A stretch of DNA of 21,850 nucleotides, taken from positions 1-21,850 of IMG/VR virus record IMGVR_UViG_3300007345_000329. The stretch is one strand, 5' to 3'. Numbering within the stretch: position 1 is the stretch's first letter; every line of letters starts with the position of its first letter. Of this stretch, positions 5,562 to 11,679 are shown one piece after another. The position numbers and the translations under genes were made by a program. The notes beneath the pieces were generated by a model, which saw only the letters and a list, made by a program, of their open reading frames with translations, made no database searches and was not told the origin of the DNA. The stretch is from a virus.

Positions 5562-5733
5562 GGATATTCCAAAGCCGGACTACACCGGCACGTACGGCTA
5601 CAGCTACGACCTCGAGCTTGGAACTGGTTGGACAAAGGCTTTCACAAAGTTCTGGGAAAAGCGTGGCATGGGGCCAGCTGGGCTCCCACTGCCAAAGCCA
5701 AAGCAGCGCAAACCTCCAAGAAAAGTAGAGTGA
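5554..5733 (+). CDS. Small unknown protein (59 aa)
   Basis: The frame starts MHEDIPKPDYTGTYGYSYDL, followed by a W/K-rich middle (WTKAFTKFWEKRG) and a Pro/Lys-rich basic tail (PLPKPKQRKPPRKVE). The start lies in the last codons of the previous gene after AAGGAG at 5543-5548, a good ribosome binding site. The stop TGA shares its A with the next ATG at 5733. This ordered, punctuated frame fits the operon better than the frame that starts 4 nt later. I do not recognise a family. The positively charged tail could contact nucleic acid. Confidence 0.65.
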   Translation: MHEDIPKPDYTGTYGYSYDLELGTGWTKAFTKFWEKRGMGPAGLPLPKPKQRKPPRKVE

Positions 5734-6521
5734 TGAAATATATCAGATTTTACTTCGATCACTGGGCGTGCTCTACCCGGATGCTATCGCTCGAGGCTAA
5801 AGGCGCTTGGCTTGAGCTCATGGTAGCCATGAGCACTCAGAGAGAGCCCGGGAAGCTGGAAGCCAGTATTGACCAGATAGCTCGTTTATGGGGTGTCACG
5901 TGCTCACGAGCTGAAGAGCTGCTAAGTGATCTCGAGATGGCAAACGTGTGTGAGATCCGGCATGGGGAAAAGATTCAAGTGCAATGCCGAGAGCTGATCA
6001 AGTCAGCTAAGGATCACGACGAGTATGCCAAGAAACGCAGCGAGGCTGGGAGGATTGGTGGGCAAGCAAGTGCTAAAGCACGTGCTCAACGAATCGTTAA
6101 CGAATCGTCAACGATTGCTAAAGCAAACGTTAAGCAATCGTCAAGCAAGCGCTCAACGAATCGTCAAGCAAACGTCAACCATACTACTAAGCTACTAACT
6201 ACTAAGACTAATAAAGCTAATACTAGCTTAAAGGGGGCTCCTACTTTGGATGAGATAAAAGCTTTCTGCGCTTCGCGCTCTCTCCCCGAGTCACGAGCTG
6301 AAGCTTTCTTCAACTACTACGAGGGACACAACCTCTGGAGAAACAAAAACGGGGAACCAATCAAATGGTTCCACATGATTCAAAACTCACCATGGAACGA
6401 GGATAGACAAGACAATGGAAAAAACGGCTCAGGATCTGTTCGGGTCAATCGCAACTCAGGAACAGCAAATGACGGCGACTTCAGTGAATTCGCAAACGTG
6501 GGCAAAGTGGCTCGGGATTGA
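5733..6521 (+). CDS. Replisome organiser / replication initiator-like protein (DUF1376-like N-terminus)
   Basis: The product is 262 aa. The N-terminus (MKYIRFYFDHWACSTRMLSL, then EAKGAWLELMVAMSTQREPG and IDQIARLWGVTCSRAEELLSDLE) is the winged-helix-type start found in phage replication proteins of the DUF1376 kind. A KKRSEAGRIGGQASAKAR linker follows, then a Ser/Thr/Asn-rich stretch at about residues 119-165 that is encoded by the DNA repeats at 6088-6231. The C-terminal part ends with a replication-protein-like PIKWFHMIQNSPWNEDR. The next gene is a DnaC-like loader that starts inside this one. This matches the O-P order of lambdoid phages, where the origin lies within gene O. Start: the ATG shares a base with the upstream stop. 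Confidence 0.72.
   Translation: MKYIRFYFDHWACSTRMLSLEAKGAWLELMVAMSTQREPGKLEASIDQIARLWGVTCSRAEELLSDLEMANVCEIRHGEKIQVQCRELIKSAKDHDEYAKKRSEAGRIGGQASAKARAQRIVNESSTIAKANVKQSSSKRSTNRQANVNHTTKLLTTKTNKANTSLKGAPTLDEIKAFCASRSLPESRAEAFFNYYEGHNLWRNKNGEPIKWFHMIQNSPWNEDRQDNGKNGSGSVRVNRNSGTANDGDFSEFANVGKVARD
6088..6176 (+). repeat. 11-bp iteron array, candidate replication origin
   Basis: Eight near-identical 11-mers stand head to tail with starts at 6088, 6099, 6110, 6121, 6132, 6143, 6155 and 6166 (one 12-bp step). Examples are AACGAATCGTT, AACGAATCGTC, AAGCAATCGTC and AAGCAAACGTC; consensus about AASSAAWCGTC. Eleven is not a multiple of three, so the repeat is kept at DNA level and not as a peptide repeat. 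One copy per helical turn places all sites on the same face. Confidence 0.82.
6177..6231 (+). other. AT-rich tract next to iterons, possible unwinding element
   Basis: Directly after the iterons is an A/T-rich stretch with CTACTAA at 6184, 6192 and 6199, then ACTAATA and CTAATACTAG. On the opposite strand it contains spaced TAGTAG units, which resemble the TAG trinucleotides (DnaA-trio) of bacterial unwinding elements. The likeness is suggestive only. Confidence 0.5.
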
Positions 6522-7023
6522 GCTGGTTGACGACGAGGTTGAACGCATGGTCAAGGCAGCAGCAGAATGGGCGACAGCGATCAAAGAGGGCAAAAGCCCT
6601 CGATGGTTGGTCATGCTGGGCACATCTGGATGCGGCAAGACTCACATCGCTAAGCGGCTTTGGAAATGGCTTCAAGGTCATAGGGAAGACTTCAGCTCAC
6701 GAGCCGAATACCTACCTCGATGGATCTACTGGCCCGGGTTCATGGATAAAACCAAAACCGATACGAGCTGCTACGGAGTCCTCAACGACATGCCAAAGTG
6801 GAAATATCTGGTGCTCGATGATGTGCTGGCAGAACGGCAGTCAGACTGGACTGTAGAGAAACTGCACAACCTCATTGGACAGCGAGCACGCAAATGGACG
6901 ATCATCACAAGCAACCTCTCGATGATGGGCATGGCGAAACTGGACAAACGAATCGCCAGCCGAATGCTGAGAGACAAAAGCATCGTCACCGATGTGACCA
7001 CCACTGATTACAACCTCCGATGA
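6415..7023 (+). CDS. DnaC/IstB-like helicase loader ATPase
   Basis: This 202-aa AAA+ protein should load the replicative helicase at the phage origin. From the ATG at 6415, Walker A is GTSGCGKT (69-76), Walker B is YLVLDD (131-136), a sensor-1-like WTIITSN lies at about 161-167, and DKRIASRMLRD carries the likely arginine finger. The size and order fit DnaC/DnaI-type loaders. The ATG at 6415 gives a 107-bp overlap with the organiser gene; an ATG at 6469 after AGGA gives a 184-aa alternative that keeps all motifs. No DnaB-type helicase gene is seen, so the host helicase is probably used. The stop overlaps the next ATG. Confidence 0.85.
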   Translation: MEKTAQDLFGSIATQEQQMTATSVNSQTWAKWLGIELVDDEVERMVKAAAEWATAIKEGKSPRWLVMLGTSGCGKTHIAKRLWKWLQGHREDFSSRAEYLPRWIYWPGFMDKTKTDTSCYGVLNDMPKWKYLVLDDVLAERQSDWTVEKLHNLIGQRARKWTIITSNLSMMGMAKLDKRIASRMLRDKSIVTDVTTTDYNLR

Positions 7024-7305: not shown

Positions 7306-7368
7306 ATGATAAGGTTTGAACATAAAAATGCGTTAGAAGGCATTCTGGAGCGTTTAAAGGGCATATGA
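7306..7368 (+). CDS. Possible 20-aa micro-ORF coupled to terS
   Basis: GGAG at 7295-7298 precedes an ATG at 7306. The short frame encodes a Lys/Leu-rich helical peptide (ALEGILERLKGI at the end), and its TGA lies in the start of the small terminase gene (ATGA at 7365-7368). The spacing and junction match the true genes of this operon, but the length makes it uncertain. It may serve translational coupling. Confidence 0.35.
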   Translation: MIRFEHKNALEGILERLKGI

Positions 7369-7997
7369 GCAAGAAGACTACAGGCAAAGAACTGGAGAAG
7401 CCGTCAGCTCAAGGGACAATTGAGGCTTTAAGGCCATACATGACCATGATTGAGGGCATGTGTCCTCAGTCAGCCATCGACGCAACGAAGAGAGGAGTCA
7501 CGGCCAATGATAAATACACTCGAGACAATGTGCTGATGATCCTACGGCTGATTGCTGGAGGATACAGCCAACAGGACGCGAGCAATCTTGTCGGAGTGAC
7601 GCCGAGCACGCTCTCGAAATGGAAGCAAAAACATCAGGACTTTGAGGAAGCGTGCGAACAGGTCAAGAGTGTGAACATCTCCATGTACCTCAACGTGATA
7701 CACAAAGGGATGGAGAGAGATCCTAAGCTGGCTTTGGCTATGCTGGAGAGGGTTCATCCGAAGCAATACGCCCAGACGAAGAGGGTGGAAGGAACTATGT
7801 CTCACGCTCATGAACACGGACCGTCCAAGCTACTGCTCCAGCTCCACGAGGAACGAAAAGCCCTCGATTCTAAGCAGACAACTGATGTGCTATCAGACGC
7901 TAAGGTCGTTGAGCCTATTGATGCTGAGGAACTTAGCGATAACTGTACCCAGAACACAGCTGATGGGGGTGGTGGGGAGGGGTCCAGCCCCATTTGA
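7365..7997 (+). CDS. terS: Small terminase subunit-like DNA-binding protein
   Basis: The product is 210 aa. The N-terminal half holds a helix-turn-helix: VLMILRLIAGGYSQQDASNL, then VGVTPSTLSKWKQKHQDF. It is followed by helices YLNVIHKGMERDPKLALAML and ERVHPKQYAQTKRVEG. The last part, 'W/MLERxxPxxYA' after a helix-turn-helix, is typical of phage small terminase subunits, which recognise packaging sites and assemble into rings. The C-terminal 60 residues are acidic and low in complexity, ending in a Gly-rich tail whose DNA forms the 5' arm of the terminator. Unusually it is about 3.7 kb from the large subunit. A phage regulator with the same fold is the alternative. Confidence 0.68.
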   Translation: MSKKTTGKELEKPSAQGTIEALRPYMTMIEGMCPQSAIDATKRGVTANDKYTRDNVLMILRLIAGGYSQQDASNLVGVTPSTLSKWKQKHQDFEEACEQVKSVNISMYLNVIHKGMERDPKLALAMLERVHPKQYAQTKRVEGTMSHAHEHGPSKLLLQLHEERKALDSKQTTDVLSDAKVVEPIDAEELSDNCTQNTADGGGGEGSSPI

Positions 7998-8968: not shown

Positions 8969-9137
8969 CGGAGTGATCATCAGCCGCAAGGTGATGTCCC
9001 TCGATGGAACCGAGGCTGAGGACATGTTTGCCAGCAGCATCGCCGGGTTGGTCGATGAGGTGATGGACAATGTTGAAGCCGAGATCGAGGAAGAGGAAGA
9101 CGATGGCTTCGATTTTAAGGCATTTAAGAGGAACTGA
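8931..9137 (+). CDS. Unknown small acidic protein (68 aa)
   Basis: The start MIKIEVKIKEGNDGVIISRK looks like two beta strands. It is followed by a helix and a very acidic stretch (EAEIEEEEDD) and a basic end FKAFKRN. The ATG at 8931 has AAGG about 6 nt ahead; a GTG one codon upstream is also open. It overlaps the Lar-like gene by 38 bp. The acidic profile resembles DNA mimics or small phage regulators, but I do not recognise it. Confidence 0.55.
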   Translation: MIKIEVKIKEGNDGVIISRKVMSLDGTEAEDMFASSIAGLVDEVMDNVEAEIEEEEDDGFDFKAFKRN

Positions 9138-9150
9138 AACACCAGAGCCG

Positions 9151-10188
9151 ATGAGACTCATTATTCGCGGTCAGCTGGCCGATAACAGCTCCTATGATTT
9201 TCACTCACGGATAATCATCGATGGGCTCGTTGACCGTGGTTGGGATGTGTGCGTCATCCCATACAACTTGGACGCTTGGTCGCGTCTGCCCGAGCGGTAT
9301 GAGCGTCTTGTCAGTAGGCAACCCAAGTGGGACGCTCCTACCCTCATTATTCATCCACCCAAGCAAGCCCCGGACGATCCCAGCCGCACGATCTACTCGA
9401 CGATGTGGGAGACCACTCGAATCCCTCAAGGCTGGATACGTAACCTTAACAGCTCGCGAGCCGTCATCGTGCCGAGCAATCCCAATATCATGACGTTCAG
9501 TGCTCAAGGTGTAACGACATCGATGCACTGCGTGCCATTTGGGATTGATACAGAGACGTTCACTCCCGGGCCATTTACAGCTCGTGAGAAAGTTGTGTTT
9601 GGCACGAGCGGTATCAGCCGTCATGGCTGGCCCAGAAAGGGCTTTGACGAGGTCGTTGAGGCGTTCCTCCGGGCGTTCCCTAATGGCGACGAGAATGTAG
9701 AGCTCAGGATCAAGTGTTACCCGAAAGACCCGATCCCGGCATGGACAGATAAGCGGATTGTCTGTGATCAAGGCGAGTGGCCCAAAGAGGAGCTGTGTGG
9801 GTGGTATCAGTCCATTGACTGCTACGTGTCGATGAGTAAGGGCGAGGGCTTCGGGCTCATGCCGCTCGAGTGCATGGCCGCTGGTCGCCCCAGTGTGCTG
9901 CCAGCTTGGTTTGGCCCGGAGGCATACGCTAAGGACAGCAACTCATTTCTAGTGGATTACAAGCTTGTCCCGGCAACCAACTACTACGAGGGGCAAGGGC
10001 TATGGTGTGATCCCAGCGTGGAGAGCTGCGCGAAGATCATGGCTCAGCTGGCTAAACGTCCGGAGATGATTTACGCCAAAGCAAAGGTCGCTGCCACTGA
10101 CGCACACAAGTTCACTTACGACAAAATGGTTCAAGGATACGTCGATGTCATCAACCAGTATTTCGGAGTTCACCCGTATGGGTATTAG
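9151..10188 (+). CDS. GT4-family glycosyltransferase
   Basis: This 345-aa protein should transfer a sugar from a nucleotide donor in the cytoplasm. The N-terminal Rossmann half begins MRLIIRGQLADNSSYDFHSR and includes YSTMWETTRIPQGWI and VPSNPN. The C-terminal half shows VVFGTSGISRHGWPRKGFDEVVEA and the family signature E-x7-E (E232 in GEGFGLMPLE, E240), which binds the donor ribose/phosphate. The frame is open upstream, but the ATG at 9151 begins the fold and lies 13 bp after the previous stop. It overlaps the methyltransferase gene by 11 bp. Together with the next two genes it forms a glycan cassette set between the terminase genes. Confidence 0.85.
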   Translation: MRLIIRGQLADNSSYDFHSRIIIDGLVDRGWDVCVIPYNLDAWSRLPERYERLVSRQPKWDAPTLIIHPPKQAPDDPSRTIYSTMWETTRIPQGWIRNLNSSRAVIVPSNPNIMTFSAQGVTTSMHCVPFGIDTETFTPGPFTAREKVVFGTSGISRHGWPRKGFDEVVEAFLRAFPNGDENVELRIKCYPKDPIPAWTDKRIVCDQGEWPKEELCGWYQSIDCYVSMSKGEGFGLMPLECMAAGRPSVLPAWFGPEAYAKDSNSFLVDYKLVPATNYYEGQGLWCDPSVESCAKIMAQLAKRPEMIYAKAKVAATDAHKFTYDKMVQGYVDVINQYFGVHPYGY

Positions 10189-10837
10189 CCTACCAGTGTT
10201 TAGAGAGGGCACGTGGGATGACGGTATCTGGGGAGAGGCCCGGACATACCGTGTGCGCGACTTCAAGGGAAAGGTTGTCGTGGATCTGGGAGCCCACATT
10301 GGTGGCTTCACGACCATGGCAGCTGACGGTGGAGCCAAGCGCGTTTATGCCTACGAAGCGTGGAAAGAGAACTTTAAAATTCTCCAGAGCAACGTCGATG
10401 GCTACGAAAACGTGGAGGCCCACAACTGCGCGGTATGGAAGAGTAATAGCCCGGTTAAGAACGTCTACTTCCATGATGACTTCGACCAATCCAACACGGG
10501 AGGCGGTGGAGTGTTTGAGGCGACCGGACAAGGGCTTGAAGTCCGTTGCATGGGCTTGGATGACATCATCAGAGACACTGGCTTCATTGATATTCTAAAG
10601 ATCGATATTGAATCTTCAGAGTTCCCGGTGCTGTTTACCTCAGCTCGTCTGCACATGGTCCGGGCCATCATAGGCGAGTATCACCACGGTCGATCAGACC
10701 GCTTTGAGGACATAGGAGGACGCCACTGGGAATACAACATGGATTCACTGAAACTGTTTCTCGAGGGACACGGCTTTCATGTGGCAGTTGAGAAGTTCAG
10801 CGACGACTTAGGAAAGTTCGCAGCCTTTCGGATATGA
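10178..10837 (+). CDS. FkbM-family SAM methyltransferase
   Basis: This 219-aa protein is likely to O-methylate a sugar. GKVVVDLGAHIGGFT (residues 31-45) is the S-adenosylmethionine-binding motif I, RVYAYEAWKENFKIL supplies the acidic ribose-binding residue, and GFIDILKIDIESSEFPVL at about 135-152 is the FkbM hallmark. The length is normal for the family. The ATG at 10178 begins the fold and overlaps the glycosyltransferase stop; an in-frame ATG at 10145 would overlap more. Its stop overlaps the next start by an ATGA junction. Methylation often caps a glycan, which fits a decoration pathway with the two flanking transferases. Confidence 0.82.
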   Translation: MGISLPVFREGTWDDGIWGEARTYRVRDFKGKVVVDLGAHIGGFTTMAADGGAKRVYAYEAWKENFKILQSNVDGYENVEAHNCAVWKSNSPVKNVYFHDDFDQSNTGGGGVFEATGQGLEVRCMGLDDIIRDTGFIDILKIDIESSEFPVLFTSARLHMVRAIIGEYHHGRSDRFEDIGGRHWEYNMDSLKLFLEGHGFHVAVEKFSDDLGKFAAFRI

Positions 10838-11679
10838 GGGTAGCATTCGTAGACACAAACTACGATTGGCATCAGCGAGACAACGTGATGTGGCAGAGCC
10901 TGATTAGGCTTAGGGAAAACGTCACGTTAGACAACATCAACCCAGACCTTGTAGTTACAAAAGCGTTTGGTAACGGCTCGTCTCACGAGCTGTATGACTG
11001 CGCGAAGTGGTTCTTCACTATCGAGAGCCCGTGCCCAACACACCCGAAGTTGGATTTCAGTTTTACTCACGACGAGGACTCAGACACCAATTCGTATTTC
11101 CCGTGCTACTACTCATGGGTTGATTGGTTCAACGAGGCCATGCGTGTCTATCCTCAGTTTCTAATTCCTCCCAAGCTGCTGACTGAGCAGATCCCGGTAA
11201 GGCGACCAAGGCGAAAGTCGTTCACGGCTTTCTGGACAGCTGGTGGTCCGTTTCGAGATGTGTTTCCACAAAAGCTCGAGGCCATGGGCTTTGCGACCGA
11301 AAGGCATGGCAACTTGTTTGGGAAGCCTTACGTCAACTCCAAGATGAAGTGGCTGACCATGCTCGATACTAAATACAATCTCGCGTTTGAGAACCGGCTG
11401 TATCCCGGGTATCACACCGAGAAAGTGGTCGAAGCCAAAGCGGCTGGGACAATTCCAATTTACTACGGCGATCTGGGCATGAAAAACCTCAACTCTGAGG
11501 CGTGCCTAAACATCGCGGAGTATGACTATCTCGATGAGGCACTGGATGCGGTAGCGGATCTGGTCCACGACGAGCACGTGCAACAAACGATAACCGAGAC
11601 CCCACTGTTCATTAATCCACCCACCATCGACACTGTGTTAGCTCAGGTCGAGAGAGGGTTGTTGAGAGTTGGTCTGTAA
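10834..11679 (+). CDS. GT10 (fucosyltransferase-like) glycosyltransferase
   Basis: The product is 281 aa. The C-terminal part has LAFENRLYPGYHTEKVVEAK and then AAGTIPIYYGD, matching the GT10 alpha-1,3/1,4-fucosyltransferase signature 'FEN....dY.TEK....l.aG.vPI.yG'. F185-E186-N187 and T195-E196-K197 are the GDP-sugar-binding elements. The N-terminal acceptor domain (WHQRDNVMWQSLI, FFTIESPCPTHP) is less conserved. The actual donor need not be GDP-fucose. The start is ATGA-coupled to the methyltransferase, and the stop shares its last base with the large terminase ATG (11679), so the cassette is locked into the late operon. Confidence 0.8.
   Translation: MRVAFVDTNYDWHQRDNVMWQSLIRLRENVTLDNINPDLVVTKAFGNGSSHELYDCAKWFFTIESPCPTHPKLDFSFTHDEDSDTNSYFPCYYSWVDWFNEAMRVYPQFLIPPKLLTEQIPVRRPRRKSFTAFWTAGGPFRDVFPQKLEAMGFATERHGNLFGKPYVNSKMKWLTMLDTKYNLAFENRLYPGYHTEKVVEAKAAGTIPIYYGDLGMKNLNSEACLNIAEYDYLDEALDAVADLVHDEHVQQTITETPLFINPPTIDTVLAQVERGLLRVGL

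Follow-up and report, generated by a model that had tools for sequence, protein, structure and literature searches.

A probable replication origin inside the coding sequence of a DUF1376-like phage initiator gene

Plasmid iterons are generally about 17–22 bp long and lie outside the rep gene. Origins of this kind hold helix-phased iterons beside an A+T-rich region (PMC5043065), as does the locus described here, in which, unlike in the plasmids, the iterons are ~11 bp long and are located inside the gene. Phage origins embedded in a gene are already known as such. In phage lambda, the O gene itself contains the iterons, and opening takes place in the A+T-rich region beside them; lambda ori and its Stx-phage variants resemble our locus in that the iterons sit midway through the initiator gene, with an adjoining A+T-rich tract and the loader gene next (PMC5043065, PMC7466680). 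The origins of phage-inducible chromosomal islands also combine iterons with an AT-rich presumed melting site near the rep gene, but these lie on the 3' side of rep and have two sets of iterons, on either side of the AT region (PMC6092414), whereas our locus has a single set within the gene. The phage DUF1376/YdaU genes annotated as 'primosomal protein' share the place of the domain, the linker, and the in-gene array with its tract; they mostly carry AACGnnCGTT, whereas our locus carries AACGAATCGTY and AAGCA-type words and its protein scores below the Pfam cut-off. Judged by title and abstract, none of the open-access papers that name DUF1376 connects it with a replication origin, and the tandem iteron words were found in none of the open-access papers searched, subscription papers being outside the coverage of both searches.

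The window analyzed here is the whole stretch of viral DNA (21,850 nucleotides, from an IMG/VR record). Direct reading revealed ten 11-mers on its + strand at 6064–6176, inside the putative initiator gene (Table 1). The eight downstream units, already listed in the initial annotation, are all present and start at 6088, 6099, 6110, 6121, 6132, 6143, 6155 and 6166; the two upstream units, absent from that annotation, resemble the 12-bp units of a relative, L010. The steps between the ten units are 12, 12, 11, 11, 11, 11, 11, 12 and 11 bp, and the 11-bp phase noted earlier therefore holds for most steps but not as a strict rule (6143 to 6155 is 12 bp, and the L010 array is purely 12 bp). All ten units have A at positions 1, 2 and 5, nine have G at position 9, and the unit at 6088, AACGAATCGTT, is a full odd palindrome. 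The ten start points represent all three codon positions. The lag-11 segment score of the array was 29, while 3000 synonymous-codon shuffles gave a maximum of 19 and a mean of 6.8; over lags 5–33, the top score among 400 synonymous shuffles was 16, and nowhere else in the 21.8-kb window did the lag-11 score reach 12. Because the 11-bp lag breaks the codon phase and protein-preserving shuffles never reproduce the array, the array is real and not a product of the protein sequence, in agreement with the earlier proposal that a frame-shifting repeat period reflects selection on the DNA. The three CTACTAA units described behind the array were likewise located, at 6184–6190, 6192–6198 and 6199–6205.

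Table 1 Features of the putative in-gene origin and its surroundings (window coordinates)
Feature	Position	Strand	Remarks
Initiator gene	5733–6521	+	262 codons; N-terminal winged-helix domain (DUF1376-like), disordered linker, small C-terminal domain
Upstream iteron units (two)	6064–6074 AAGCAAGTGCT; 6076–6086 AAGCACGTGCT	+	12-bp steps
Iteron units (eight of 11 bp)	6088–6176	+	Consensus AASSAANCGTY, dyad character; scored against synonymous shuffles
A-rich, G-poor tract, presumed melting region	6177–6232	+	26 A, 14 T, 12 C, 4 G; three CTACTAA units
Weak inverted repeat AAGCTA-ATAC-TAGCTT	6214–6229	.	DNA fold z about -2; absent from L009
DnaC-like AAA+ helicase loader gene	6415–7023	+	Overlaps initiator gene; phrog_50, E 2.8e-23

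The product of the initiator gene matched three 'primosomal protein' families of PHROG (E 1.8e-8 to 4.2e-6). Its score against Pfam DUF1376 (PF07120) was 14.7 bits (E 0.041), below the gathering cut-off of 30.1 bits; when the window-clade alignment was compared with DUF1376 alignments by hhalign, the values were 96% (E 2.3e-9) and 88% (E 2.7e-6). The AlphaFold model contains a confident winged-helix N-terminal domain and, at residues 127–167, which the later units and the tract encode, a segment of low confidence that is probably disordered. Array and tract together encode the linker, which is predicted to be disordered and is poorly conserved as protein. Among viral proteins, the fold neighbours included DUF1376 proteins (one match at E 1.4e-5), replication initiators and replisome organizers; the PDB fold search returned generic winged helices alone, for the most part regulators and none at E ≤ 0.001, and the PDB sequence search gave nothing useful. 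Scans of sequenced genomes found no relatives. By profile–profile and fold similarity over its N-terminal domain, the window protein belongs, distantly, to the DUF1376 winged-helix group. The likeness to lambda O that had been suggested gained no backing from Pfam, which gave no O-family match, and the DnaC-like loader gene said to follow the initiator gene is indeed there, assigned to the phrog_50 DnaC-like helicase loaders. Compared with lambda, in which four 19-bp inverted-repeat iterons are bound by O dimers and the loader is P, the window has ten ~11-bp units, a DnaC-like loader and a protein without an O-family match. Neither 19-bp inverted-repeat iterons nor an O-family protein was found, the units of the window array being 11–12 bp. 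The lambda-type reading of the initial annotation therefore stands for its plan (repeats selected as DNA inside the initiator gene, an adjoining A+T-rich tract, a loader gene directly downstream) and falls as a strict lambda O type.

Relatives of the window clade were found in IMG/VR, and all of them carry an array at the same gene position, with differing words and a pitch of 11 or 12 bp. The units of L009 (93%) are near-identical to those of the window; L010 (67% identical) has a pure 12-bp array of AAGCACGTGCTA units, L011 and L013 (41%) have AAGCAAACGTT units at 11 bp, and L012, L014–L016, L026 and L030 (37–39%) have 12-bp AAAGGGTACCCT units or close variants. Dyads among these words include AACGA-A-TCGTT, AGCACGTGCT and GGGTACCC. 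The tract behind the array retains CATACTA(A) or CATTCTATATC, and the distant relatives L031–L034 retain the tract while their iterons are not significant. Such a kept place with diverged words is the pattern expected if a protein and its binding site evolve jointly while the layout stays fixed. Comparison across related phages had been named as a check that could count against the origin; its outcome favours the origin, since close relatives with the gene have a repeat there as well.

These data suggest that the locus is very probably a phage replication origin lying within the gene for its own initiator, on the plan of lambda ori, and all sequence evidence favours binding of this in-gene origin by the product of the surrounding gene. 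The winged-helix N-terminal domain would bind the iterons of the gene that encodes it; every iteron is a small dyad with half-sites AACG/CGTT or relatives. Such half-sites would face alternately every 5–6 bp and fill opposite faces in turn, and therefore the array could be coated continuously, with about one dyad per helical turn. The bound protein, together with supercoiling, would then melt the adjacent A-rich tract, where the DnaC-like AAA+ protein of the overlapping gene would load the host replicative helicase. We infer binding, melting, loading and the filament, the chain of events being modelled on lambda O. The GC-skew switch that had been expected at the origin is absent at 6.1 kb.

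The arrangement was also examined in 107 non-redundant DUF1376-group genes, drawn from phages with annotation and from scans of IMG/VR. Of these genes, 58 have tandem repeats that exceed those of synonymous shuffles; among control genes taken at the same loci, the figure is 1 of 92. Once the short tract was masked, nearly all significant iteron lags were 11, 12 or their doubles, with the arrays beginning around nt 340. Significant arrays were present in all five window-clade genes, in 32 of the 39 genes of gamma type and in 23 of the 53 of alpha type (alpha and gamma are our own labels, given by the query that found each gene). A 10-bp dyad, AACGnnCGTT, is the most frequent word, seen 109 times versus 10.6 in synonymous shuffles; the excess is restricted to spacing 2, none being detected at spacings 0, 1, 3, 4 or 5, and successive copies are mostly 11 bp (21 cases) or 12 bp (7 cases) apart. 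In all but one of 48 genes (47), the iterons stand ahead of the short-repeat tract, with a median gap of 6 nt; the tracts of the family consist of 6–7-bp repeats, and their coding strand is 52% A. The array, its conserved place with diverged words, the fixed order from iterons to tract and the family-wide link between this signature and initiator genes are all apparent from the sequences.

This fixed order bears on the possibility that the array is an operator, to which the initiator or another phage regulator binds solely to control transcription of the replication genes by roadblock or autoregulation. The array does lie inside an operon, and winged-helix proteins are often regulators, as are most of the PDB fold matches mentioned above. 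However, the array is deep within the gene, away from any promoter position, and a regulator site would not need an A-rich tract kept at a fixed order and distance across the family; we consider this reading unlikely. Even less probable is that the repeats merely reflect a repetitive or low-complexity protein linker and have no DNA function: although a disordered and poorly conserved linker would suit this idea, it conflicts with the broken codon phase and the synonymous shuffles, and with a dyad excess that is specific to spacing 2 and absent in control genes.

The DUF1376 group was also approached from DNA alone, by a blind query of IMG/VR for AACGnnCGTT, one or two bases, and AACGnnCGTT again. 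At least 120 stretches match this tandem. Among the matches listed, 77 frames of at least 130 codons contain the match, at a median of nt 350, and 69 of the 77 belong to DUF1376 (63) or Lin1244_N (6). With ACAGnnCTGT, a control dyad of equal composition, 9 stretches were obtained, and none of the 9 lies in an initiator; all of these counts come from IMG/VR, in which related contigs recur. The remaining alternative, a packaging (pac or cos) or recombination site, has a terminase small-subunit-like gene at 7365–7997, about 0.8 kb downstream of the initiator gene, in its favour, but is the least probable of all, as the signature tracks the initiator gene across the family whatever its neighbours. 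A scan with the window's own iteron word found arrays in initiator-like genes of other kinds as well; the L248 array mixes AACGACCGTT and AACGAATCGTT units, and in L265 (6571) and L277 a short-repeat tract stands before the iterons.

A third element, a hairpin, was detected in other members of the group. Within nt 370–470 of the gene, there are 33 perfect hairpins with a 4-nt loop and a stem of at least 7, where 1.8 are expected. When stems of at least 6 were admitted, 24 of 37 four-base loops read TNNC on the coding strand (0.2 expected) and none read GNNA; given this bias, the hairpins of the other strand are of the C(GNNA)G type. This DNA tetraloop is exceptionally stable, and in three examples the GNNA strand folded 0.4 kcal/mol better with DNA parameters. 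Among the 36 hairpins with T..C or T..A loops in the joint set, 23 distinct stems were counted; all four pair types are represented at every stem position, and the encoded amino acids change in step with the palindrome (e.g. EEPIGSS, EVTSVTS and DISNDIS). The hairpin is most frequent in alpha-type genes; TNNC/GNNA hairpins just after the tract were seen in L036, L038, L144, L153, L163, L169–L176, L194 and others. An intrinsic terminator was considered and rejected, no T run being visible by eye behind the stems. The inverted repeat at 6214–6229 of the window is a possible counterpart, but because it is weak there and not kept in L009, the hairpin stays outside the main claim for the window. 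More broadly, and only tentatively, we propose that DUF1376 and Lin1244 winged-helix proteins may together be a single, very large and hitherto undescribed class of phage initiators, whose linker-coding DNA holds an origin in three parts: dyads of the AACGnnCGTT type, one per helical turn, that would seat a two-sided filament; a lineage-specific A-rich melting tract; and, in many members, a hairpin whose non-coding strand, closed by a C(GNNA)G tetraloop, would act in single-stranded form as a signal to load helicase or primase.

If the origin reading is right, DUF1376, a common Pfam domain of 'unknown function', gains a likely role as an origin-binding domain, and the DNA signature can find the replication origins of many uncultured phages straight from sequence. 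Since initiator and iterons have changed together in a natural series, the winged-helix recognition code becomes testable, and the strand-biased hairpin is a candidate single-strand loading or priming signal.

Several other readings were tried and set aside. A DnaA-trio in the CTACTAA tract would have the correct orientation, but the CTA units are confined to the window clade, the tracts outside it being ACAGAT, CCAGAA or CCATAA repeats; 3'-GAT-type trinucleotides beside initiator boxes, kept across the group, were not found. A downstream ATPase is not a family rule, because a Walker-A frame lies within 1.3 kb in only 12 of 57 scan-set initiators. Rac oriJ was dropped as a mapped DUF1376 origin, as the available literature passages do not put it within ydaU; the ydaU gene of Rac-SA53 has no AACGnnCGTT and no strong repeat. 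DUF1376 plasmids were likewise rejected as natural minimal replicons, both plasmids inspected having another rep gene. On plasmid pSWBY1 of Acinetobacter (L208, 20629–22262), a replication pair of phage type, made up of a YdaU-family gene and an ATP-binding protein gene, stands beside repM.

Further AACGnnCGTT words, single or in pairs (32 matches), occur at nt 120–190 of many DUF1376 genes (e.g. L040, L049, L056 and L058), about 200 bp upstream of the main array and in the winged-helix coding part. In the window itself, positions 90–145, at the start of the integrase reading frame, resemble the 3' half of a tRNA gene with the end GTGTACCA; ARAGORN detected no whole tRNA in this region, which is probably the phage attachment site. 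Judged by eye from translations alone, the block at 9070–11679, between the small and large terminase genes, holds one glycosyltransferase-like and one methyltransferase-like gene.
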